Source: Bacillus sp. (in: firmicutes) (GTDB lineage: Bacteria > Bacillota > Bacilli > Bacillales > Bacillaceae). Taken from it: a stretch of DNA of 64,000 bases. The stretch lies in assembly GCA_031180405.1 (NCBI GenBank), contig JAPSLU010000001.1:1-64000 (forward strand), read 5' to 3'. Below the pieces are notes generated by a model. It had not been told where the DNA came from, searched no databases, and was given only the letters and a program-made list of their open reading frames with translations. The translations under genes and the position numbers were made by a program. Of the stretch, positions 40,955 to 64,000 are shown piece by piece. How positions within the stretch are numbered: position 1 is the stretch's first letter; every line of letters starts with the position of its first letter.

Positions 40955-40981
40955 ATTAGTTAGTTTACAAAACAAATTAAT
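40955..40981. promoter_or_regulatory. Operator-like site upstream of gndA, shared with the uxaC/ROK region
   Basis: ATTAGTTAGTTTACAAAACAAATTAAT; reverse complement matches 57476-57502 at 26/27. Confidence 0.75.
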
Positions 40982-41084: not shown

Positions 41085-42497
41085 ATGTCAAAACAACAAA
41101 TCGGTGTTATCGGACTAGCGGTAATGGGAAAAAATCTTGCGTTAAATATTGAGAGTAGGGGTTATTCAGTTTCTGTTTTTAATCGTTCCTATGAAAAAAC
41201 GGAAGAATTCTTAAAGAACGAAGCTGAAGGAAAGAATTTTGTTGGTTTAAAAACAATTGAAGAATTTGTTCATTCATTAGAAACACCACGTAAAATATTA
41301 TTAATGGTTAAGGCTGGAAGTGCAACTGATGCAACAATCGAATCTTTAAAGCCTTATTTAGAAAAAGGTGATATTTTAATAGATGGTGGAAATACTTTCT
41401 TCCAGGATACAATTAGACGTAATAAAGAATTAGAATCGACAGGTATTCACTTCATTGGTACAGGTGTTTCAGGTGGTGAAGAGGGAGCACTAAAAGGACC
41501 TTCCATCATGCCTGGTGGTCAAAAGGAAGCCTATAAGCTTGTAGAACCAATTTTTAAAGCAATTTCTGCAAAAGTTGATCAAGATGAATGTGTTACATAT
41601 ATAGGGCCTAATGGCGCTGGTCACTATGTAAAGATGGTTCATAATGGAATTGAATATGGTGATATGCAATTAATATGTGAAGCATATTTTATTTTGAAAA
41701 ATGTACTAGGATTAAGTGCAAATGACCTTCACCATGTATTCTCTGAATGGAATAAAGGGGAATTAGATAGTTACTTAATTGAAATCACTTCAGACATTTT
41801 TACAAAGGTAGACGAAGAAACAGGTAAGCCACTTGTGGATGTTATCCTTGATACGGCCGGTCAAAAAGGAACAGGAAAATGGACAAGTCAAAATGCACTT
41901 GATTTAGGAACCCCGCTCCCAATTATTACAGAATCAGTATTTGCTCGTTTTATTTCAGCAATGAAGGATGAACGCGTTAAGGCTAGTAAACTTTTAAAAG
42001 GTCCTGAGATAACTTCTTTTGAAGGAAATAATACTGAATTAATAGAAGCGGTCCGTCAAGCATTATATTTAAGTAAGATTGTTTCATATGCTCAAGGTTT
42101 TGCTCAAATGAGAGCAGCTTCCGAAGAATATGATTGGAATCTTAATTATGGAGATATTGCGATGATTTTCCGTGGTGGATGTATAATACGTGCCCAATTC
42201 CTACAAAAAATAAAAGACGCATATGATCGTGATCCAAATTTAGCAAACCTACTTTTAGATCAGTATTTCAATGAAATAGCTGGAAACTATCAAACTGCAT
42301 TGCGTAAAGTAATTTCATTAGCAGTAGAAAAAGGCATTCCAGTACCTGCTTTCTCAAGCGCTATTGCTTATTACGATAGTTATCGTAGTGAAACATTACC
42401 AGCTAATCTTTTACAAGCTCAACGTGATTATTTCGGAGCACATACGTACCAGCGTGTTGATAAAGAAGGGGTCTTTCATACGAACTGGATGTCTTGA
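41085..42497 (+). CDS. gndA: 6-phosphogluconate dehydrogenase, decarboxylating
   Basis: [57 protein letters not shown]. Confidence 0.95.
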
Positions 42498-50609: not shown

Positions 50610-51512
50610 ATGAGTTTTTCCAATATTTCAACTAAAATGATAGTAGTTTCATTGGAAGGAATGGTTTACTTGTATGAAACATTGGTTGTGAATTATAGAA
50701 TGCAAGGGCATTACTCCCTTGACTTTCATTCACATCAGGAGTACGAAATCTATATATTTCATAAGGGTTCTTGCAGATATTTGATTCATAATCATATATA
50801 CGATTTAGAGCCAGGAGATATTTTATTAATGGATGGGATGACACTTCATAAGCCAAATGTTAGCCCTAGTTGTGAGTATATTCGCAGCGTTATACACTTT
50901 TCACCACATTGGATTAAAAGTTTGCTAATTGAGATGGGCGGTATGTATTTATTAGAGGTTTTTCAACAACTACACCATTGTTTAATTAGGGCGAGCGATC
51001 ATAACCAATTGAAAGAACTTGAGGATGTTATTTGTCGTCTAGCTGAAGTAAAAAGAAACGCTGAATCTAATGATATTTATGCAGTCACAGAAATGAAAGT
51101 ATTACTTTTACAAGTATTAATTAATGTGCATCGGCTCGTTCGGATGAACTCGATTAATACTTCGAACAAGAAGGAAGACAAGGCAATCCATGCCGAAAAT
51201 ATCGCAGAGTATGTTCAAGAGAATTATATGAAGAAGTTAACTTTACAAACAATTGCAGACGGGCTTAATTTGAGCAAGTCGTATGTAGCACATGTATTCA
51301 AAGAAATGACAGGATTTACAGTCATGGAGTATGTAATGGGATGTCGGCTAAGACAGGTGAAATATTTACTTGAGATGGAGACGGATAAACCATTAAAAGA
51401 TATTGCATATGAATGTGGTTTTGAAAGCGTTCCCCACTTTAGTCGTTATTTCCGTGAAAAAGTAGGGGTAACAGCGAAAAAGTATCGTAGTTTAAGAACT
51501 CAAATAGAATGA
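50610..51512 (+). CDS. AraC family transcriptional regulator (cupin sensor)
   Basis: HSHQEYEIYIFHKGSCRYLI cupin; LNLSKSYVAHVFKEMTGFTVMEYV HTH; start may be downstream. Confidence 0.9.
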   Translation: MSFSNISTKMIVVSLEGMVYLYETLVVNYRMQGHYSLDFHSHQEYEIYIFHKGSCRYLIHNHIYDLEPGDILLMDGMTLHKPNVSPSCEYIRSVIHFSPHWIKSLLIEMGGMYLLEVFQQLHHCLIRASDHNQLKELEDVICRLAEVKRNAESNDIYAVTEMKVLLLQVLINVHRLVRMNSINTSNKKEDKAIHAENIAEYVQENYMKKLTLQTIADGLNLSKSYVAHVFKEMTGFTVMEYVMGCRLRQVKYLLEMETDKPLKDIAYECGFESVPHFSRYFREKVGVTAKKYRSLRTQIE

Positions 51513-51561
51513 TAATAACAAGGAGATTCTTATCATTTATTAATATCGAGGAGGATCAGAG

Positions 51562-53613
51562 ATGAATCGTAACTTAATGATATCAGGATTTTCAGATGAA
51601 ATCTCATCAGACTTTAATACCCAACTTGAAGTTGTTTCTAATTTGGGAATGAATTATATCTCAATACGTGGGATTGACGGGAAAAATATTGGTGATTTTA
51701 CTGTTGATGAATTTAAAGAGAATGTACTACCACGTCTTCAAACTGCACGAATTAGTGTTTCATCAGTCGGATCACCAATTGGGAAAGTGTTTATCAATGA
51801 TGAAGAAGGCTTTGCAAACCAAAAAAAAATGTTGGATACGCTTTGCCAGATTAGCAATCTACTAAATTGTCAATATATTCGTATTTTCAGCTTTTATATT
51901 CCAAAGGGAGAAAATGCTGATCATTATAAAGATGAAGTAATCAGGAAGTTAAAGGAATATTCAGCCATTGCAGAAAAATATGATGTCATCCTCCTTCATG
52001 AGAATGAGAAGGATATTTACGGTGATATTGGAAGACGTTGTAAAGAAATCTTAGATGAAGTGGGATCTCCTCACTTTAAGGCAATTTTTGATTTTGCGAA
52101 CTTTGTTCAATGTGGTGAAGACACACAAGAATGCTATGGCTTACTAAAAAATGATATCGCATACATTCACATTAAGGATGCCGTAACAACTGATAGTCAT
52201 AATGTGGTTTGTGGTACTGGAGATGGAAAAATTGCTGATATTTTATCACAGGCAATCCAAAGAGGCTATCAAGGATTTTTAACACTAGAACCTCATTTAG
52301 TTCTTTTTGACTCATTGAAAGATTTAGAACTTGAAGAAGCGACTGAAGTGATTAAAGAAACACAAGGATTAGATGGTGCTGGTGGATATAAGCTTCAATA
52401 TGAGGCGCTATTGGAAATACTAGGAAAAATCGAGAGTGAAGGAGAGAAGAATATGAATAAAGTAAGATTAGGTATTATCGGAATCGGGATTCAAGGTGGT
52501 ACTTACGCCGACTTTATCAAAGAAGGCAAAGTAAAAGGAATGGAGATCGGGGCTATTTGTGATATCGATCCTGAGAAAGAAACAATGGTTGAAGAAAAAT
52601 ATCCTGGTGTTCCATTCTATGAAAACTATATAGACCTTCTTGAAAGTGGAAATGTGGATGCAATTATAACAACCGTTCCTCACTATTTACATCCAGAAAT
52701 CGGAATTGCTGCATTAAAAAGAAATATTCATGCATTAGTGGAAAAACCAGCTGGTGTTTATACAAAACAAGTAAAAGAATTAAACGATTTTGCTTCAACA
52801 AAACCAGAATTAACATTTGGAATTATGTTTAATCAACGAACAAATCCACTTTATCAAAAAGTAAAAGAAATAATTGAAAATGGCGAAATCGGGAAAATCC
52901 GCCGTACAAACTGGATGATTACAACTTGGTGGAGACCACAAGGTTATTATGATTTAAGTGAATGGAGAGCAACTTGGGAAGGAGAAGGCGGTGGTGTTCT
53001 CGTCAACCAGGCACCACACCAATTAGATTTACTGCAATGGATTTGTGGTATGCCTAAAAAAGTCTACTCAAATGTCAAATACGGTTACCAAAGAAATATT
53101 GCAGTTGAAGATGAAGTAACAGCCATGCTTGATTATGGCAATGGAGCTACGGGTGTATTTATTACATGTACTCATGACGTTGTTGGGACAGATCGTTTTG
53201 AAATTTTAGGAGACAAAGGGAAGATTGTTGTCGATGACAGTAAAAAAGTAACAATTAAAAGACTTGCTCAACCTGAATCAGAAATGAGCGCAACCATTCC
53301 ATGGGGAGAAGTTTCAAATATTTTTAAAGGTGAAGGATTATCCAAAATCTACTCTGAGGAAGTACTAGAATTTGAAAGTGTCTGGGGTGCTCAACATATC
53401 GGAGTACTAGAGAACTTTGCTGCCAACATTCTTGATGGCGCACCACTATTAGCACCAGGTAGTGATGGTATTCACGGAGTGAGGTTAGCAAATGCCATTC
53501 ACTTATCAAGTTGGTTAGGTAAAGAAATAGAAATTCCGTTTGATGAAGATTTATTCCTAGATGAATTGAATAAAAGAGTTGAAGAAGAAAGAACGAGCTT
53601 AGTTAAACAATAA
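51562..53613 (+). CDS. Fusion: TIM-barrel sugar isomerase/epimerase (N) + Gfo/Idh/MocA oxidoreductase (C)
   Basis: N-term IolE/AP-endonuclease-2-type TIM barrel; C-term MNKVRLGIIGIGIQGGTYADF...LVEKPAGVYTK; single ORF. Confidence 0.85.
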   Translation: MNRNLMISGFSDEISSDFNTQLEVVSNLGMNYISIRGIDGKNIGDFTVDEFKENVLPRLQTARISVSSVGSPIGKVFINDEEGFANQKKMLDTLCQISNLLNCQYIRIFSFYIPKGENADHYKDEVIRKLKEYSAIAEKYDVILLHENEKDIYGDIGRRCKEILDEVGSPHFKAIFDFANFVQCGEDTQECYGLLKNDIAYIHIKDAVTTDSHNVVCGTGDGKIADILSQAIQRGYQGFLTLEPHLVLFDSLKDLELEEATEVIKETQGLDGAGGYKLQYEALLEILGKIESEGEKNMNKVRLGIIGIGIQGGTYADFIKEGKVKGMEIGAICDIDPEKETMVEEKYPGVPFYENYIDLLESGNVDAIITTVPHYLHPEIGIAALKRNIHALVEKPAGVYTKQVKELNDFASTKPELTFGIMFNQRTNPLYQKVKEIIENGEIGKIRRTNWMITTWWRPQGYYDLSEWRATWEGEGGGVLVNQAPHQLDLLQWICGMPKKVYSNVKYGYQRNIAVEDEVTAMLDYGNGATGVFITCTHDVVGTDRFEILGDKGKIVVDDSKKVTIKRLAQPESEMSATIPWGEVSNIFKGEGLSKIYSEEVLEFESVWGAQHIGVLENFAANILDGAPLLAPGSDGIHGVRLANAIHLSSWLGKEIEIPFDEDLFLDELNKRVEEERTSLVKQ

Positions 53614-53688
53614 TCTAATGTTTGTAGAATAAAATAAAGCTAGCCTTTTACCATTCAACAGCAGGCAGCTTTTAAAGGAGATTAACTT

Positions 53689-54711
53689 ATGCTAAAAGTA
53701 GCAGTTATAGGCCTTGGGGATATCTCAAAGATTCATATTCCTGCTATTCAAGAGAACCCTGAGGTTGAGCTGGTGGCAGTTTGTGATATTGATGAATCAT
53801 TAGCTGATACTGTACCTGGTATTCGCTTTTATACAGATTATCATGTGATGCTTGAAGAGGAGACTTTGGATTGTGTTCATATCTGCTTGCCACATTATCT
53901 CCACGTTCCTGCAACAAAAGCATGTGTTGAAAAAGGTATTCACGTTTTGCAAGAAAAGCCTCTCGCGATAAATAGAGAAGAAGGCTTAGAGCTAGTAAAA
54001 CTTGAAAAAGATAACCCGAATGTAAAGATTTGTATTTGCCACCAAAATCGTTATAACGAGACGTTTGAAACTCTAAAAAAGATCGTCCAAAGTGGAGCAT
54101 ATGGAAAGATTGTTGGCATTAAAGGGCTAGTTACTTGGTTTAGACCTAAGTCGTATTACGATGTAAAGCCTTGGCGTGGACAAATGAAGTACGCTGGTGG
54201 AGGTGTTATGATTAACCAATCCATTCATACATTAGATTTAATGCAGTTACTAGGTGGGGAGATTGAATCAATTAAAGGTTCCATTACCCAATTATTAGAT
54301 TATAGTATTGATGTCGAGGATACAGCAGTAGCTAACATTACATTTAAAAATGGTGCAACAGGGTTGTTTTTTGCTACAAATTCGAATGCAGAAAATTCTA
54401 GTGTTGAATTACATGTCGTCTTAGAAAATGGCAAATTTACGATTAAAGATAGTATTCTTACAAAAGTCGATGAAGATGGTAAGAAGGAAGAAATCATTGA
54501 AGATACAAAACTATCAGGTACCAAATTTTATTATGGTGCTAGTCATATCAAGATCATTGATACTTTCTATTCTTGTATTCGAAACAACACTCAAGATTAT
54601 GTTCATGTAGAAGATACATTACCATCGATTGAAATCATTGATGCAATCCGCAAATCATCCGAATTAAATAAATCAATTGATATGGAGGATTTCCAATATG
54701 CTAAAAGGTAA
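53689..54711 (+). CDS. Gfo/Idh/MocA family oxidoreductase
   Basis: VAVIGLGDISKIHIPAI, VLQEKPLA, GGGVMINQSIHTLDL. Confidence 0.92.
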   Translation: MLKVAVIGLGDISKIHIPAIQENPEVELVAVCDIDESLADTVPGIRFYTDYHVMLEEETLDCVHICLPHYLHVPATKACVEKGIHVLQEKPLAINREEGLELVKLEKDNPNVKICICHQNRYNETFETLKKIVQSGAYGKIVGIKGLVTWFRPKSYYDVKPWRGQMKYAGGGVMINQSIHTLDLMQLLGGEIESIKGSITQLLDYSIDVEDTAVANITFKNGATGLFFATNSNAENSSVELHVVLENGKFTIKDSILTKVDEDGKKEEIIEDTKLSGTKFYYGASHIKIIDTFYSCIRNNTQDYVHVEDTLPSIEIIDAIRKSSELNKSIDMEDFQYAKR

Positions 54712-55558
54712 ATTTGGTGTACAAATGATGATGCTAAAAGGCAAAGTCGAAGAACTTGGTGCCTATGAAACAATGAGAAAAATAAAAGACCTTGGTTACC
54801 GAAGTGTAGAGGTGTCACAAATTCCGATGACACCGGAAAATGTAGCTGAATTAAAAAGAGCTAGCAAGGATTTCGATATCGAAATTGCTGCATGTTCAGC
54901 TGCACTAGAACCAAACATGCCAGGTATGCCTGGAGAAACGTTAGCAACTGATTTCGAAAAAATCGTCAATGATTGTAAAATATTAAATTGTAACTACTTA
55001 CGTATAGGGATGCTACCATTGCACTTAATGGGCAACAAAGATAAAATTATGGAATTTATTCAAAAAGCAGAAGCAATGGCTGAGAAATTAGCTGAGCATG
55101 GTATTGAATTATACTACCATAACCACCATATCGAATTCGAACAATATGATGGTGAAACACTTTTAGATATTATGAAAAATCATACTTCTAAAATTGGGTT
55201 TGAATTGGATGTTCACTGGATTCATAGGGGTGGAGAAAACCCGGTAGATGTCATCAATCGATTTGAAAATCGTATTTCACTTATTCACTTGAAAGACTAT
55301 CGAATTGGTCATCTTGATGTAACGGAAGAAGATTTGAAAGAAAGACAAAGATTCTGGGCGAAATTTACTAATGTTATTGAGTTTGCAGAGGTAGGTCAAG
55401 GTAGCTTGGACTTTACAGCAATTATTGAAGCGGGTCTGAAGAGTGGGGCAAAATATTTCTTAGTCGAACAGGATGATACATATGGCCGTGATCCATTTGA
55501 CTGCCTACAAACATCTGCGGAGCATTTAAGGAAGCTAGGATATGCTGATTGGTTTTAA
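54701..55558 (+). CDS. Sugar phosphate isomerase/epimerase family TIM-barrel protein
   Basis: KIKDLGYRSVEVSQI, YYHNHHIEFEQ, GFELDVHWIHRGGENP; start at MLKGKFGVQ behind GGAGG. Confidence 0.9.
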   Translation, partial: LKGKFGVQMMMLKGKVEELGAYETMRKIKDLGYRSVEVSQIPMTPENVAELKRASKDFDIEIAACSAALEPNMPGMPGETLATDFEKIVNDCKILNCNYLRIGMLPLHLMGNKDKIMEFIQKAEAMAEKLAEHGIELYYHNHHIEFEQYDGETLLDIMKNHTSKIGFELDVHWIHRGGENPVDVINRFENRISLIHLKDYRIGHLDVTEEDLKERQRFWAKFTNVIEFAEVGQGSLDFTAIIEAGLKSGAKYFLVEQDDTYGRDPFDCLQTSAEHLRKLGYADWF

Positions 55559-56140: not shown

Positions 56141-57310
56141 CTAGTTTTGATTATTAAGCGTTAAACGTAATTCAGGAATCTCTAAAAAATCCTTAATAGC
56201 AAATGCGCACGCACCCATAACAGCCGCTTGTTTGCCTAGGTCAGAAATAAATAATTCATTATAATAGCTCACTGAAGAAATAAGATTAGACTTAATTTTA
56301 TCAATAGCATCTGGATAAAGCTTCAATAATTCACTATTTAAAACCAATGTTTCAGGATTTAATAAATTAATAATGTTATTTAATCCAATTGCTACATATT
56401 GAATAAATCGCTCTAAATGATCACAGGTTACGGGATCTTCATCCTTAATTAGCATTTTTACATCCTCATAGGTTATACCTTGTTTTTGATGTAATTCTTC
56501 AAGCTGGTTAAAGAAGCTAGCTTCAGAAGCATATAATTCCCAACAACCTAAATTTCCGCAATTACATGGTTTGCCGTCAGGAACAATAATCATGTGACCC
56601 ATTTCACCGGCATACCCATGGTATCCTTTAAGGAGGTCTCCGTTTATTAAGATACCAAGTCCAATGCCAGAGTACATGCTGATACTTATCAAATTCTCAC
56701 TATGGTGACGGACATATACTTTCTCTGCAAATGAGCATAAGTTTGCATTATTCTCAATATGTATGTTTATATTGAGCTCTTTCTCTAAATCTTTTTTTAA
56801 GTTCTTGTTTTCCCATTTATGCTGGGGAACAAAATTGATCATTTCATTTTTTGATACGATACCATGTACTCCGATAACAACACCTATAAGTCCAAAACGA
56901 CTTTCTGAACATTGCTTATTAAAAGCTTTTATTTGATTTGTTAGGATTTCAAGAATTTCATCATAATGTGAGCTTTTTAATTCGATTACTTCTGTTTGAA
57001 TAGGCGTCCCGGATAAATCAGATAATGTGAATGTGACTTGTTTATAATCCAAGTCTACTCCTAATGCGTAACCTGCATGACGATTAAGAGACAGCATGAT
57101 CGGCTTTCTTCCAACATGATGATGTTCTTGTTGGGATTCTACAATTAATTCTTCTTCTAACAAATCAGCTACTTGTACAGAGATGGTAGCTCTTGTTAAA
57201 TTAGTGATTTTTGATAAATCAGCTCTTGAGATCATTCCTTCTTCAATAATTTTACTTATAATTAACCGTCTATTAATTTGTTTTATATAAGCAGCATCAC
57301 CAGTTGCCAT
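56141..57310 (-). CDS. ROK family transcriptional regulator (XylR/NagC type)
   Basis: wHTH ISRADLSKITNLTRATISVQVADLLEE; GYALGVDLDYKQ; CNCGNLGCWE zinc motif; start reset to MATGDAAYIKQ. Confidence 0.92.
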   Translation of the reverse strand: MATGDAAYIKQINRRLIISKIIEEGMISRADLSKITNLTRATISVQVADLLEEELIVESQQEHHHVGRKPIMLSLNRHAGYALGVDLDYKQVTFTLSDLSGTPIQTEVIELKSSHYDEILEILTNQIKAFNKQCSESRFGLIGVVIGVHGIVSKNEMINFVPQHKWENKNLKKDLEKELNINIHIENNANLCSFAEKVYVRHHSENLISISMYSGIGLGILINGDLLKGYHGYAGEMGHMIIVPDGKPCNCGNLGCWELYASEASFFNQLEELHQKQGITYEDVKMLIKDEDPVTCDHLERFIQYVAIGLNNIINLLNPETLVLNSELLKLYPDAIDKIKSNLISSVSYYNELFISDLGKQAAVMGACAFAIKDFLEIPELRLTLNNQN

Positions 57311-57475
57311 GTAATCACCCTTCTGATATATGGTAGATAAAACGTTTCTTTCGCCAATTAAATCATTATACATTTTGCCATATTATATGAAAATCAACCA
57401 TACATAAAATGGGGAAAATCGTATAAATCAACATATTGACGAGTAGAAGTAGAAGTGATATTCTACAGATATCAC

Positions 57476-57502
57476 ATTAATTTGTTTTGTAAACTAATTA
57501 AT
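57476..57502. promoter_or_regulatory. Operator-like site between ROK regulator and uxaC
   Basis: ATTAATTTGTTTTGTAAACTAATTAAT; XylR/NagC-like imperfect palindrome; matches site upstream of gndA. Confidence 0.75.
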
Positions 57503-57682: not shown

Positions 57683-59086
57683 ATGAAAACGTTTTTAAGC
57701 GAGGATTTTTTATTAACAAATACGACTGCAGAGAATCTTTACCATAACGTAATGAAAGACTTACCAATTTTCGACTACCATTGTCATTTAAGTCCAAAAG
57801 AAATCTATGAAAATCAATCCTTTGAAAATATCACAAAGCTCTGGCTAGCTGGAGATCACTATAAATGGCGTGCTATGCGAATTCATGGAGTAAAAGAAGC
57901 CTTAATAACAGGGGATGCTAGTGATTGGGAGAAGTTTGAGGCTTGGGCTGAAACAGTACCACATTTATTCGGAAATCCATTATATCACTGGACACATATG
58001 GAATTAAGAACATACTTCGGAATTACAAAGCTTTTATCTCCGGATACTGCTAAGGAGATTTGGGAAGAATGTAATGAAAAGTTGCAAACAGACGATTTTA
58101 AGCCTCGTCGCTTTATTGAAAGATCAAATGTTCAATTTGTCGGTACAACAGATGATCCTGCAGATACGCTGGAATATCATAAATTAATAAAAGAAGATTC
58201 AAGCTTCCAGGTTGTTGTAGCTCCAACATTTCGCCCTGATCAGGCCATTTATATAGAAAGAACTAGTTTTGAAGAATATCTAACAAAGTTAGAAGATGCC
58301 TCAGGAGTTAAGATTGAAGGACTTGGTGGATTAGTTGAAGCATTAAAGCAACGAGTAGATCACTTTGCTGATCATGGTTGTTATGCATCTGATCATGATA
58401 TCCCGCTTATGGCGTTCCAACAACTACCGAAAAATGAAGTTGAGGAGATCTTTTCAAAACGTTTGCGTCATGAGGAACTAACAAGTGACGAATTAATTGG
58501 ATATCGTTCGTATTTACTTGTTGAATTAGGAAAAATGTACGCAGAAAAAGAATGGGTTATGCAACTGCATATGGGTGGTTTAAGAAATAATAATACGTAT
58601 ATGAAGGAATTAATTGGTGCTGACGGTGGGTTTGATTCAATCGGAGACAACTTGTTAGCTGAAGGGCTTTCACGATTCCTAGATACATTAGATCAAGCAA
58701 GATCATTACCTAGAACGGTTCTGTACAACTTAAATCCACGTGATAACTATGTGATTGGGACAATGATTGGAAACTTCTTTGAAGAAGGAATTCCTGGGAA
58801 GGTTCAATTTGGATCTGGCTGGTGGTTTAACGATCAATATAATGGAATGCTAAATCAAATGACAGACCTAGCAAACTTAGGCATTCTGAGCCATTTCATC
58901 GGAATGACAACGGATTCTAGAAGTCTTCTGTCGTATGTTCGTCATGAGTATTTTAGAAGAATTGTATGTAATATCCTCGGAGAATGGGTTGAAGAAGGAA
59001 AAGTACCAAATGATGAAGTCATTTTACAGCAAATGATCACAAATATCGGATTCAAAAATGCACAAAACTATTTTTCTAAGCGATGA
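57683..59086 (+). CDS. uxaC: Glucuronate (uronate) isomerase
   Basis: LPIFDYHCHLSPKEIYENQSFENITKLWLAGDHYKWRAMRIHGV. Confidence 0.96.
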   Translation: MKTFLSEDFLLTNTTAENLYHNVMKDLPIFDYHCHLSPKEIYENQSFENITKLWLAGDHYKWRAMRIHGVKEALITGDASDWEKFEAWAETVPHLFGNPLYHWTHMELRTYFGITKLLSPDTAKEIWEECNEKLQTDDFKPRRFIERSNVQFVGTTDDPADTLEYHKLIKEDSSFQVVVAPTFRPDQAIYIERTSFEEYLTKLEDASGVKIEGLGGLVEALKQRVDHFADHGCYASDHDIPLMAFQQLPKNEVEEIFSKRLRHEELTSDELIGYRSYLLVELGKMYAEKEWVMQLHMGGLRNNNTYMKELIGADGGFDSIGDNLLAEGLSRFLDTLDQARSLPRTVLYNLNPRDNYVIGTMIGNFFEEGIPGKVQFGSGWWFNDQYNGMLNQMTDLANLGILSHFIGMTTDSRSLLSYVRHEYFRRIVCNILGEWVEEGKVPNDEVILQQMITNIGFKNAQNYFSKR

Positions 59087-59139
59087 GGCTTCTTTCTATA
59101 AAAAAGATTATCTAAAAATACTTTGAACAAAACTTTGTA

Positions 59140-59177
59140 GGTTGATTGGAGCGAGCATCCTGGAGCTCCAATCAACC
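59140..59177. repeat. 38-bp internally deleted derivative of the 130-bp repeat (perfect hairpin)
   Basis: GGTTGATTGGAGC-gagcatcctgga-GCTCCAATCAACC. Confidence 0.8.
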
Positions 59178-59248
59178 AACCCTTACACTAGTTAAAAAGC
59201 AAATAGTTTACGGAAACAGCCAATAATTTAAAGGAGCAGATATAAGTT

Positions 59249-60517
59249 ATGGGTATTCTTCAAGATTTATTAAAAGACATTCCAGTTCCAAAAATGGTGA
59301 AGGTAAGACAGAACTTTGACAACAGTAAGATAGAAGATATCGAACAAGCTTTAAATGAGAAATTCCAACAAGAATCCATCCGTTCTAAAGTAAAACCAGG
59401 AATGGAAATTGCCATTGCAGTTGGAAGCCGTGGAATGGATCGACTTGTTGAAATTACGGCAAAAACGGTTCAATTTCTAAAGGATTTAGGCGCTACTCCA
59501 TTTATTGTCCCTAGTATGGGAAGTCATGGCGGGGCAACTGCTGAGGGACAAAAAGAGGTCTTGGCCCATCTTGGTGTAACAGAAGAAAGTGTAAAAGCGG
59601 AAATCCGTTCCTCTATGGAAGTGATCAAATTAGGAGAATTGCCAAACGGATTACCAGTATATATAGACAAATATGCCTCACAGGCAGATGGAATTGTTGT
59701 AATTAATCGTATTAAACCACATACCGCATTTAGAGGACCAGTTGAAAGTGGCATCATGAAGATGATCAGTATCGGCTTAGGGAAGCAAAAAGGTGCTGAA
59801 GCTACTCATCAATTAGGATTTAAATATATGGCTGAAAATGTTCCGGCTATGGCTCGAATGATGATGGAAAAAACACCAATTCTTTTCGGAGTAGCCACTC
59901 TTGAAAATGCATTTGATAAAGTGGCAAGAGTTGAGGTTTTAGCGGTAGAAGAGATCGAAGAAAAAGAGCCAGCTCTTCAAGCGCTAGCAAAACAATTATT
60001 GCCTAAATTGTTCTTTGAGCAAATTGACGTTCTTGTAATTGACGAGATTGGCAAAAACATTAGTGGTGATGGAATGGATCCGAATATTACAGGGAGATAT
60101 CCAACACCTTACGCTAAGGGTGGACCTGATGTAAATAAAATGGTTGTTCTTGATTTAACCCACCAAACAGAGGGGAATGCAAATGGAGTAGGAACAGCAG
60201 ATTTTACGACACAACGTCTTGTTGACAAAATGGACCGCGAAGTGACATATGCGAACGGACTTACTTCAACAGTATGTGCTCCAACGAAAATCGCAACAAC
60301 TTTAGCAAATGATAGAGACGCCATAAAAGCTGCTATCAAAACATGTAATATTTTAGACTTTACAAAAGTAAAAATGGTCCGTATTAAAAATACATTAGAT
60401 ATCGCTGAAATTGAAGTTTCAGAAGCTTTGATTGATCATGTAACAGGGCATCCTGATATGGAACTAATATCAGATCCTTTTGAATTACGATTTAATGAGG
60501 ACGGAAACTTAATATAA
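59249..60517 (+). CDS. LarA-family (nickel-dependent hydroxyacid racemase/epimerase) homologue; predicted D-gluconate/D-mannonate 2-epimerase
   Basis: LarA-type PSMGSHGGATAEGQ, NRIKPHTAFRGPVESGIMKMISIGLGKQKGAEATH; operon with larE and larB. Confidence 0.8.
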   Translation: MGILQDLLKDIPVPKMVKVRQNFDNSKIEDIEQALNEKFQQESIRSKVKPGMEIAIAVGSRGMDRLVEITAKTVQFLKDLGATPFIVPSMGSHGGATAEGQKEVLAHLGVTEESVKAEIRSSMEVIKLGELPNGLPVYIDKYASQADGIVVINRIKPHTAFRGPVESGIMKMISIGLGKQKGAEATHQLGFKYMAENVPAMARMMMEKTPILFGVATLENAFDKVARVEVLAVEEIEEKEPALQALAKQLLPKLFFEQIDVLVIDEIGKNISGDGMDPNITGRYPTPYAKGGPDVNKMVVLDLTHQTEGNANGVGTADFTTQRLVDKMDREVTYANGLTSTVCAPTKIATTLANDRDAIKAAIKTCNILDFTKVKMVRIKNTLDIAEIEVSEALIDHVTGHPDMELISDPFELRFNEDGNLI

Positions 60518-60576
60518 GAGATTGTCATTAAATATATAACACACGATGTTTGAATAAAATGAGGGGGACTTTTAAA

Positions 60577-61347
60577 ATGTCTAGTTTATTTGATTTAACA
60601 GGGAAAACAGCTGTAGCAATTGGTGGAAACAGCGTATTAGGTTCATCAATTGCAAAAGGGCTTTCAGAGCATGGAGCAGCTATTGCTATTGTTGGCCGTA
60701 ATTTTGAAAAGGCTAATCAAGTTGTAGCAGAAATTGAAGAAGCTGGTGGTACAGCAAAAGCATTCCAAGCAGATGTAGGCTCCCGAGAATCTTTGGAAAA
60801 GGTAGTAAAGGAAATTGAAGATTGGTCTGGTGGCTTCGATATTCTTCTTAATGCACCTGGAAAAAATAGCACAACTCCTTTCTTTGAATTAAGTGATGAA
60901 GAATGGGACGATATTATGGATGTTAACTTAAAAGGCATGATGATTACATGTCAAATTTTCGCAAAGAAAATGATTGACCAAGGAAGAAAGGGAAGTATCA
61001 TTAATATTTCTTCTGTTTCATCAACAACTCCTCTTTCTAAAGTGTTTACGTATTCAGTTTCGAAAGCGGGAGTAAATAGCATGACCCAGTACTTAGCACG
61101 AGAGTTTGCTCCGAATAACATACGTGTAAATGCAATTATCCCTGGTTTCTTCCCAGCAGAGCAAAATCGAAAAATATTAAGTGAAGAACGTGTTGAGTCC
61201 ATTATGAATCATACTCCAATGAAGCGTTTCGGAAGCCCGGATGAACTTCAAGGTGCAGCGATTTGGCTTGCTTCAGAGAATGCTTCTAGTTTTGTAACAG
61301 GAGCTCTTATCCGTGTTGATGGTGGTTTTGGAAGTATGACGATTTAA
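60577..61347 (+). CDS. SDR-family oxidoreductase, probable D-mannonate oxidoreductase (fructuronate reductase, YjmF-like)
   Basis: LFDLTGKTAVAIGGNSVLGSSIAKGL, YSVSKAGV, IPGFFPAEQNRKIL; start at MSSLFDL behind GAGGGGG. Confidence 0.85.
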   Translation: MSSLFDLTGKTAVAIGGNSVLGSSIAKGLSEHGAAIAIVGRNFEKANQVVAEIEEAGGTAKAFQADVGSRESLEKVVKEIEDWSGGFDILLNAPGKNSTTPFFELSDEEWDDIMDVNLKGMMITCQIFAKKMIDQGRKGSIINISSVSSTTPLSKVFTYSVSKAGVNSMTQYLAREFAPNNIRVNAIIPGFFPAEQNRKILSEERVESIMNHTPMKRFGSPDELQGAAIWLASENASSFVTGALIRVDGGFGSMTI

Positions 61348-61423
61348 CCAACTTTTTATAGATCTATATTTTAGATATAATATAGTAGGAATTTACTAGT
61401 TTAATAGAAAGGAGAAGACAACG

Positions 61424-62221
61424 ATGAATGAAAAACTTCTTAGCTTAAAGTCTATTCTCCGAGAGATGGAATCAGTTGTTGTTGCGTTTTCAGGTGGAGT
61501 TGATAGTACCTTTTTGTTAAAAGTAGCTGTTGATACATTAGGACCAGAACGAGTTTTAGCCGTCACAGCAGATTCTGAAACGTATCCTTCGAGTGAGCTT
61601 CAAGAGGCAAAAGAATTAGCAAAAAAAATTGGTGCAACTCATACTGTCATTGAAACATCCGAACTTGCTATACCAGGCTACACAGAAAATGATCGGAATC
61701 GATGCTATTTCTGCAAAAACAGCTTATTTGAACATATCATCCCAATTATGGAAAAAGAGGGTTTTCAGAATATTGTTTATGGAGTTATTGCTGACGATTT
61801 AAACGAATTTCGACCTGGGATGAAAGCAGCGAAAGAAAAGGGTATTCGTGGCCCTTTACAAGAGGCTAACTTATTTAAAGATGAAATAAGGGAGCTATCA
61901 AGGGAATTCGAGTTACCAACATGGAATAAGCCTTCGTTTGCATGCCTATCTTCTAGAATTGCATACGGAGAAAAAATTACGATTGAGAAGCTAACAAAAG
62001 TAGAGAAAGCAGAAGCATACTTAAAAACATTAAAGATCCGTCAAGTTCGAGTTCGAACACACCAGGAGATGGCACGAATTGAAGTAGAGCCAAACGATAT
62101 GAAAATTGTCCTTGAGCATCATGACACAATCGTACATGAACTAACTAAATACGGATATAAGTATATAACATTAGATTTAGTTGGATATAAGAGCGGTAGT
62201 ATGAATAAGGTTCTTTCATAA
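61424..62221 (+). CDS. larE: ATP-dependent sacrificial sulfur transferase LarE
   Basis: VVVAFSGGVDSTFLLKVA PP-loop; NRCYFCKNSLFEHI; NKPSFACLSSRIAYGEKIT. Confidence 0.92.
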   Translation: MNEKLLSLKSILREMESVVVAFSGGVDSTFLLKVAVDTLGPERVLAVTADSETYPSSELQEAKELAKKIGATHTVIETSELAIPGYTENDRNRCYFCKNSLFEHIIPIMEKEGFQNIVYGVIADDLNEFRPGMKAAKEKGIRGPLQEANLFKDEIRELSREFELPTWNKPSFACLSSRIAYGEKITIEKLTKVEKAEAYLKTLKIRQVRVRTHQEMARIEVEPNDMKIVLEHHDTIVHELTKYGYKYITLDLVGYKSGSMNKVLS

Positions 62222-62296
62222 GGCTTTGGAATTTATCCAAGGCCTTTTCTATGGAAAAATAGTAGAAACCATATTGTTGAAGGGGAAGATGAACTT

Positions 62297-63769
62297 ATGG
62301 CAAAAGAATTTGTTATGGGACTTGATATTGGAACCACTAGTGTGAAAGCGGTCATTTTTGATTTAAAGGGAAAAGTCATTTCGGATTCAGAAGAAATGAT
62401 TACATCATTTTACCCGCAACAAGGGTGGGTTGAGCAAGATCCAGTCGAAATCGAACAACTTGCTGTACAAGCAGTACGTGGTGCGATGAAGGAAGCTAAT
62501 ATTGATAAGGACGAACTTTTCACAATTGGATTTTCTTCTGCTATGCATTCGCTAGTGTGTGTAGGCGAGGATCATCAACCATTATCCAAAGCTCTCATTT
62601 GGGCAGACGGAAGAAGTAGTGAACTAGCGGAAAAATTGAAACAACAACATGGAGCGAGGGTTTTTCAAAAAACAGGAGTTCCAATTCATCCAATGACTCC
62701 CCTTACGAAATTACTTTGGATGGAAGAGGTAGAATATGAACCATATCAAAAGGCTAGTTATTTTCTATCTATTAAAGAATATGTTCTCTTAAAATGGTTT
62801 AATAAACGTGTAGTGGATTATTCAATGGCGACTGCATCGGGTTTATTTAATGCACATACACTTAATTGGGATTGTGAATTACTAGAAATGACAGGTATAA
62901 GGAAGGAACAGCTCTCAGAAGTGGTTCCACCTACTACAGTTTTAACTGGGATAAAAGAAGAGCTTGCTGATGAAATGGGCATATCACATGATCTATCATT
63001 TGTCATAGGAGCAGCAGATGGACAGTTAGCAAACTTGGGTATTGGTGCTATAACATCTGGGGAAGTGGCAATTACGGCAGGAACAAGTGGTGCCATCAGA
63101 CAATTTACAACTGGTTTCAACGTATCAGAAAACCGTGAAACATTCTGCTATACCTTTACTGAAGATTATTCTATTATTGGTGGACCAACAAATAATGGTG
63201 GAATCGCGTTACAATGGTTGAAGGAACTTTTAGGCTATGAAGGAAGCTTTGATGATTTTACAAAAGAAGCAGAGAAGGTAGCTCCAGGTGCAGAAGGATT
63301 ACTTTTTCATCCTTATATTAATGGTGAGAGAGCACCAATATGGAATCAACAAGCAAAAGGTAATTTTTACGGAATGAGTATTACTCATAAGAAGGAACAT
63401 TTTGTACGTGCCGTTTTAGAAGGAATTACATTTAACCTCTATCAAATAGGCCAAAGTTTAGAAAGATTAGCAGGTGCACCTGATAAGATTTATGTAAATG
63501 GTGGTTTGTCTAGATCTACATTATGGCTTCAAATGCTAGCTGATGTATTTGGAAAAGATGTCTATGTTTCTGAGAGCCATCATAGTGCTGCATGGGGGGC
63601 TGCGTGGACAGGATTAGTAGCTCTTGGTAAAGTGCCTTCTTTTGAGGAAATAAAAGAAAATATCCCGATGAATGCGCCTATTATACCAAATGAGGATCGC
63701 CATAAAACATATAAAAAAATCTATAATAAATATGAATTGTTAGCTAGTGACATAGCAAAGCATTTTTAA
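62297..63769 (+). CDS. gntK: Gluconokinase (FGGY family)
   Basis: MGLDIGTTSVKAVIFD; FSSAMHSLVCV; GVPIHPMTPLTKLLW; IGGPTNNGGIALQW; HPYINGERAPIWN as in B. subtilis GntK. Confidence 0.9.
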   Translation: MAKEFVMGLDIGTTSVKAVIFDLKGKVISDSEEMITSFYPQQGWVEQDPVEIEQLAVQAVRGAMKEANIDKDELFTIGFSSAMHSLVCVGEDHQPLSKALIWADGRSSELAEKLKQQHGARVFQKTGVPIHPMTPLTKLLWMEEVEYEPYQKASYFLSIKEYVLLKWFNKRVVDYSMATASGLFNAHTLNWDCELLEMTGIRKEQLSEVVPPTTVLTGIKEELADEMGISHDLSFVIGAADGQLANLGIGAITSGEVAITAGTSGAIRQFTTGFNVSENRETFCYTFTEDYSIIGGPTNNGGIALQWLKELLGYEGSFDDFTKEAEKVAPGAEGLLFHPYINGERAPIWNQQAKGNFYGMSITHKKEHFVRAVLEGITFNLYQIGQSLERLAGAPDKIYVNGGLSRSTLWLQMLADVFGKDVYVSESHHSAAWGAAWTGLVALGKVPSFEEIKENIPMNAPIIPNEDRHKTYKKIYNKYELLASDIAKHF

Positions 63770-63817
63770 TAACATCATAATAGAAGAAAGTAGCTAAAAT
63801 TAAGGTGAGTGAAGATA

Positions 63818-64000
63818 ATGCTTGAAGATATTTTAAAACAGGTTCAAACAGGGTCGCTAAGTATCGAGGAAGCCAAGGGGAAACTTTCAACATATGAGAA
63901 TTTAGGGTTTGCGAAGGTTGATCATCATCGCAAGAAACGCCAGGGTTTCCCGGAGGTCGTATACGGTGAAGGAAAAACGAAGGAACAAATTCTTTCAATT
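63818..64000 (+). CDS. larB: LarB (pyridinium-3,5-biscarboxylic acid mononucleotide synthase), truncated by window end
   Basis: MLEDILKQVQTGSLSIEEAKGKLSTYENLGFAKVDHHRKKRQGFPEVVYGEGKTKEQILSI; not in ORF track. Confidence 0.88.
   Translation, partial: MLEDILKQVQTGSLSIEEAKGKLSTYENLGFAKVDHHRKKRQGFPEVVYGEGKTKEQILSI

Follow-up and report, generated by a model that had tools for sequence, protein, structure and literature searches.

A predicted nickel-dependent operon for glucuronate use, ending in 6-phosphogluconate, in a Bacillus genome

A stretch of 64,000 nucleotides from a Bacillus sp. (GenBank assembly GCA_031180405.1, contig JAPSLU010000001.1, positions 1 to 64,000; hereafter the window) carries most of an operon that very probably degrades plant-derived glucuronic acid to 6-phosphogluconate. 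At its centre is a LarA-like protein that belongs to the superfamily of nickel-pincer nucleotide (NPN) enzymes. We consider it probable that the unit converts glucuronate to 6-phosphogluconate by way of this protein; the best explanation of the whole, which we hold with moderate confidence, is an operon under the control of a ROK-family protein that leads from glucuronate through fructuronate, mannonate and gluconate to 6-phosphogluconate. The direct basis for this proposal is gene content, conservation, a shared operator, the modelled fold and the principal catalytic and cofactor residues of the LarA-like protein, and the lack of an alternative route in some relatives; from this context we infer the pathway assignment, the substrates and products after the first enzyme, the order of steps and the role of the ROK protein.

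According to the proposal the ROK protein would control a hexuronate catabolic operon in which uronate isomerase (UxaC) would convert D-glucuronate to D-fructuronate, and a short-chain dehydrogenase/reductase (SDR) would reduce D-fructuronate to D-mannonate. LarB, LarE and a two-part LarC would make the NPN, which would be loaded into the LarA-like protein, a member of NPN group 22; this enzyme would then invert C2, turning D-mannonate into D-gluconate. An FGGY kinase would phosphorylate D-gluconate to 6-phosphogluconate, and a co-regulated dehydrogenase (Gnd) would pass the latter to the pentose phosphate pathway. The genes of the operon are as follows.

57683..59086, + strand: uxaC, uronate isomerase (PF02614, 702.5 bits; NF002794, 644.9)
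59249..60517, + strand: larA-like gene of NPN group 22, predicted hexonate (mannonate/gluconate) 2-epimerase (NF052515, 565.8 bits, cut-off 400; Lar_N, 48.6, cut-off 23.3)
60577..61347, + strand: SDR, predicted fructuronate reductase (280.4 bits to 'D-mannonate oxidoreductase', just below the cut-off of 281)
61424..62221, + strand: larE, sulfur transferase of NPN synthesis (TIGR00268, 368.7 bits, cut-off 150)
62297..63769, + strand: gntK-like FGGY kinase, predicted gluconokinase (TIGR01314, its best family, 495.5 bits, under the cut-off of 648.55)
63809..64000, + strand: 5' end of larB (contig 63809-64588; NF033503, 313.7 bits, cut-off 175)
contig 64569-65543 (L003:7570-8544), past the window end: larC1 (TIGR00299, above cut-off)
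contig 65579-66046, past the window end and after larC1: larC2 (NF052512, above cut-off)

An earlier note on this DNA had described six consecutive + strand genes: all six lie where it placed them, and the family scores agree with the names given. It had also proposed a look for larC beyond position 64,000; the gene is present directly downstream, in two parts, so that LarB, LarC and LarE are all encoded within the cluster. By homology the SDR starts at 60577; a TTG at 60550, the start listed, was judged less likely. None of uxuA, kdgK and eda lies within the operon.

The cluster recurs widely. A scan of named genomes yielded 80 loci whose LarA shares 77-94% identity with that of the window, in Metabacillus, Neobacillus, Halalkalibacter, Lederbergia, Domibacillus, Paenibacillus and other genera; the closest named relative is Metabacillus halosaccharovorans (LarA 94% identical). 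Neighbors of larA at these loci are the SDR (73 loci), larE (71), gntK (62), larB (59), larC1 (58), the ROK gene (54), larC2 (50), uxaC (43), gnd (39) and transketolase (14), some of these counts being low solely because a contig ends or because an antisense frame masks the gene in a simple gene caller (probably so for the SDR of L146-L148). Gene order is conserved far beyond chance. A gene for tagaturonate epimerase (uxaE) adjoins the cluster in several relatives (PF16257, 654.6 and 666.9 bits for the two that were tested), and in six the cluster is followed by a gene for a NicO-like protein (PF03824), whose 25.8 bits fall just short of the Pfam cut-off (27.7); this agrees with the earlier note.

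Outside the operon, two genes and two operator copies bear on its regulation.

56141..57373, − strand: ROK-family repressor, divergent from uxaC, the likely regulator (PF00480, 187 bits)
57481..57497, + strand: ROK operator copy 1, TTTGTTTTGTAAACTAA, in the ROK-uxaC intergenic region
40960..40976, − strand: ROK operator copy 2, TTTGTTTTGTAAACTAA, 109 bp upstream of gnd, 17/17 identical to copy 1
41085..42497, + strand: gnd, NADP-dependent 6-phosphogluconate dehydrogenase, predicted to share the regulon (TIGR00873, 773 bits, cut-off 426.7; operator upstream)

The window holds exactly two perfect copies of the operator, 16.5 kb apart. Two matches per 64 kb to a generic pattern with one mismatch are not unusual: the weight rests on the 17/17 identity and on the positions of the copies. 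The palindrome TTTGTTN5AACAAA was found in 35 of 55 ROK-operon intergenic regions, compared to a maximum of two in shuffled sequences. Across relatives the motif lies upstream of 49/56 ROK genes, 29/43 uxaC, 35/79 larA and 11/39 gnd genes, and upstream of none of 301 larE, gntK, larB, larC1 and larC2 genes. The ROK protein presumably binds this predicted operator. Since uxaC and gnd have the operator in common, 6-phosphogluconate dehydrogenase is tied to the operon; as predicted from sequence, UxaC, the SDR, the LarA-superfamily protein, the FGGY kinase and Gnd form one regulon. The operator before gnd also speaks for a route that ends in gluconate and 6-phosphogluconate, and the feed into Gnd that the earlier note had postulated is strengthened, given that the conserved and apparently co-regulated unit includes this enzyme.

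If the LarA-like protein is an NPN enzyme, it should have the fold and cofactor-binding residues of LarA. The predicted model (pLDDT, a per-residue confidence score, 87) retrieved 19 structures from the PDB at E <= 0.001, all of the LarA family and including 4NAR (GntE2), at a template-modelling score of about 0.5. Arg61, His93, His158, Lys171 and His187 align (hhalign) with LarA Arg75, His108, His174, Lys184 and His200; these five residues, which comprise the two catalytic His and the Arg, Lys and His that bind NPN, do not vary among 20 group-22 sequences. The protein is the sole LarA homologue found in the host genome, so the adjoining cofactor genes most likely serve it. In a survey of 400 Bacilli genomes plus that of the host, group 22 was present in 65 of the 400 and proved diverse, with several paralogues per genome. 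LarA proteins of the window type (at least 70% identity), which occur in 12 genomes (host included), are set apart by a clear gap from other group-22 proteins (at most 63%), and in the LarA tree they form a well-supported branch with a few more distant sister sequences. A further branch member, more distant, is encoded at L077 beside a gluconokinase (629 bits), an NAD-dependent 6-phosphogluconate dehydrogenase and a galactonate dehydratase homologue.

A sister group-22 branch (~55% identical; L046-L076, e.g. L051:1513-14780) has a separate conserved cluster of its own, comprising a TRAP transporter, a galactonate-dehydratase-like protein, a 735-aa IlvD/Edd-type dehydratase, a protein like 2-keto-3-deoxygluconate (KDG) kinase, 2-keto-3-deoxy-6-phosphogluconate (KDPG) aldolase and an IclR-like regulator. 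Judged by these neighbors, a large part of group 22 has the look of a sugar-acid family.

The reductase step draws on the SDR tree, in which the larA-linked clade is sister to the uxuA-linked UxuB clade (support 100/99) and Escherichia coli IdnO falls far outside. In genomes with both routes the canonical UxuB adjoins uxuA and the other SDR adjoins larA. On the simplest reading fructuronate is the substrate of both SDRs and mannonate the point at which the operons part, UxuA leading to KDG and LarA to gluconate. That the LarA superfamily can turn D-mannonate into D-gluconate is proven by GntE2 (= LarAH20) of Thermotoga maritima (PMC7583248). Because of the SDR tree and this activity in other members of the superfamily, we lean towards the exact order SDR, LarA, kinase.

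Several findings weigh against this route. For group 22 no reported activity was found in the papers searched, and the group is related to GntE only distantly in sequence. The hhalign alignment pairs LarA Asp72 with Ser60, a replacement; LarA Lys298 has no clear counterpart, Arg283 and Lys269 being the invariant candidates. Proteins of the GntE type (LarAH groups 18-20), with which the window protein shares predicted reaction, fold and cofactor, carry a signature of Glu followed by Val or Ser in the loop after the second catalytic His (PMC7583248): the window protein instead has Thr159-Ala160, of which Thr159 is invariant. The FGGY kinase, although best matched by gluconokinase, falls beneath the cut-off for that family, and the separate SDR clade of the larA operon could mean a different substrate. 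Finally, the host genome carries uxuA on contig C120, the KDPG aldolase gene eda on C64 and, on C27, a canonical UxuB-type SDR (438.8 bits) beside a xylose isomerase gene.

A GntE-type enzyme was rejected on sequence: the protein belongs to group 22 and its direct sequence matches to solved LarA structures are weak. The earlier note had arrived at a gluconate 2-epimerase through known superfamily members. That argument is not supported, as the protein lies outside groups 18-20 and lacks the loop signature; the name is suggested by context rather than by homology to characterized enzymes.

The changed catalytic residues, the absence of uxaC, the SDR or gntK beside larA at some loci (L193, L194), and the diversity of group 22 with its several paralogues per genome would suit a protein that acts on some other 2-hydroxyacid (e.g. 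lactate, malate, L-gulonate or an aldarate), in which case the operon would serve mixed substrates and not one pathway. This we regard as improbable: tight linkage to SDR, kinase and gnd over many genera, with one operator, argues against it, and genomes without uxuA would then have no evident exit for fructuronate.

Two further alternatives concern the order of steps. The high KM of known GntE enzymes for mannonate (17 and 120 mM; PMC7583248) is among the points in favor of epimerization first, whereby the LarA-like protein would act on D-fructuronate (5-keto-D-mannonate), inverting its C2 so that 5-keto-D-gluconate results, and the SDR would reduce the latter to D-gluconate, the substrate of the kinase. 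The net outcome does not differ between this order, the favored one and phosphorylation before epimerization. The gene order uxaC-larA-SDR-kinase fits, the second-best family of the SDR (221 bits) is gluconate 5-dehydrogenase, the label also of its second PDB match (1VL8), and larA-linked and uxuA-linked SDRs make up two clades. Set against this are the sister position of the SDR to UxuB fructuronate reductases, far from IdnO, and the action of T. maritima GntE2 on mannonate; moreover, use of a 5-keto acid is not known for any LarA enzyme. We judge this order unlikely.

We attach a similarly small probability to phosphorylation before epimerization, in which the FGGY kinase would make 6-phosphomannonate and the LarA-like protein would be a 6-phosphomannonate 2-epimerase. 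Such chemistry has been shown in extracts of Lactobacillus suebicus, where gluconokinase homologues are suspected as the mannonate kinase (PMC6978723), and it would accord with the low gluconokinase score of the window kinase. Characterized LarA-superfamily hexonate epimerases, on the other hand, take unphosphorylated substrates, the LarA at L077 adjoins a kinase that scores higher for gluconokinase, and the sister group-22 branch sits with dehydratases of unphosphorylated hexonates. There is perhaps some chance, albeit a doubtful one, that the group-22 protein is the first nickel-pincer enzyme to act on a keto-hexonate (turning fructuronate into 5-keto-gluconate) or on a hexonate that is phosphorylated (turning 6-phosphomannonate into 6-phosphogluconate); if so, this would be a hexuronate pathway with a new intermediate and not a copy of the Thermotoga route.

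Returning to the favored route through mannonate and gluconate, a further question is its relation to UxuA. That the genome has no uxuA was rejected, given the genes on C120, C27 and C64. The host assembly is fragmented (438 contigs, 89% complete, 6.5% contamination); the GC content and tetranucleotide make-up of the three contigs are like those of the window, and contamination is thus not an obvious reason for the presence of uxuA, uxuB and eda. With uxuA, a canonical uxuB and KDPG aldolase at hand, a bypass is not forced in the host. The UxuB-type SDR locus (L196:1432-7125, on C27) includes, as judged by eye, genes for a GH10 xylanase and a GH67 alpha-glucuronidase: this aldouronate locus suggests two parallel glucuronate routes in the host.

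Among the surveyed genomes 96 have a substantial uxaC. The cluster is found in five of the eight that have no uxuA compared to 5 of the 88 that have it (Fisher P = 0.0002, without correction for kinship; because three of the five uxuA-less cluster genomes come from a single genus, the effective number is lower). All five (G373, G177, G270, G261 and G346) have uxaC and the cluster, yet no uxuA, canonical UxuB or ManD above cut-off; the first three have no Eda either. The argument of the earlier note for a bypass, drawn from the absence of uxuA, thus fails for the host and stands for these five relatives. A general replacement of uxuA by the cluster was rejected, since 5 of the 10 uxaC-containing cluster genomes carry uxuA too. 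In some Bacilli the cluster appears to be the sole glucuronate route, and growth on glucuronate should there depend on nickel.

The earlier note had called a uronate pathway with Ni-cofactor assembly genes of its own unusual; the route as such has a precedent. T. maritima has an aldH-pelB-gnd-uxaRED-gntEK operon and a separate kdgAK-uxuBA operon (PMC3750489); GntE was proposed by Rodionova 2012, as cited in PMC6978723 and PMC3750489, and a path for mannonate into the pentose phosphate pathway had been put forward before (PMC7583248). Like T. maritima, the host would unite in one regulon gnd, an oxidoreductase (uxaD there), a predicted 2-epimerase of the LarA superfamily and a kinase whose best family is gluconokinase; like T. 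maritima it has a uronate isomerase (with uxaE beside window-type clusters in relatives) and separate uxuA and uxuB genes. It differs in that the LarA is of group 22 and not group 20, the SDR belongs to a clade sister to Bacillus-type UxuB, a ROK regulator and its operator are present, and larB, larC1, larC2 and larE lie inside the operon. The novelty is therefore a Thermotoga-like recipe with a different LarA group, SDR clade and ROK regulator and operator, and with cofactor genes in the operon. As in the L. suebicus pathway (PMC6978723), hexuronate carbon would enter as 6-phosphogluconate and not as KDG, whereas there phosphorylation precedes epimerization and the genes are unidentified. With the Ashwell route (uxaC-uxuB-uxuA-kdgK-eda) the operon shares the first step and probably the second, but it has no dehydratase, KDG kinase or KDPG aldolase.

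No paper was found that links LarA or NPN to glucuronate. NF052515 is a family without an assigned substrate, whereas its window branch is tied to a specific hexuronate operon: this provides a concrete and testable substrate class (hexonates) for a nickel-enzyme family common in Bacilli. The operon also points to a second, nickel-dependent use of glucuronate, with 6-phosphogluconate as the entry point to the pentose phosphate pathway.

The cofactor genes have features of their own. LarE has the CXXC-C cysteine pattern of the catalytic [4Fe-4S] type (CYFC and ACLSS motifs, read from the translation; for the meaning of the motif see PMC9283937), like LarE of T. maritima and unlike the L. plantarum type with its single sacrificial cysteine. 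LarC1 of the window organism contains a long His/Asp/Gly-rich insertion, possibly a nickel store. Both larC1 and larC2 have their own start (window contig and L116-L195), and in G177 they are ~10 kb apart. A programmed frameshift was rejected as the general mechanism behind the split: there are gaps between the genes, and their frame relation is spread over the three frames (21/13/14).

In Lederbergia and related genomes a protein of ~460 aa is found repeatedly next to the cluster (L139:12190-13608, L145:12129-13505, L210:14232-15605); the L139 and L210 copies, which were tested, have no Pfam match. Upstream of the cluster lies a possible accessory block.

50610..55558, + strand: AraC regulator, TIM-barrel/Gfo-Idh fusion (51562-53613), Gfo/Idh protein (53689-54711) and TIM-barrel isomerase-like protein (54677-55558)

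Such a block stands directly upstream of the cluster in ~19 of 80 related loci, with an AraC regulator, two TIM-barrel (AP_endonuc_2) and two Gfo/Idh proteins; the fusion frame of the window (683 aa, one TIM-barrel plus one Gfo/Idh) corresponds to two genes in relatives. The block might release or modify glucuronides by oxidoreductive chemistry.

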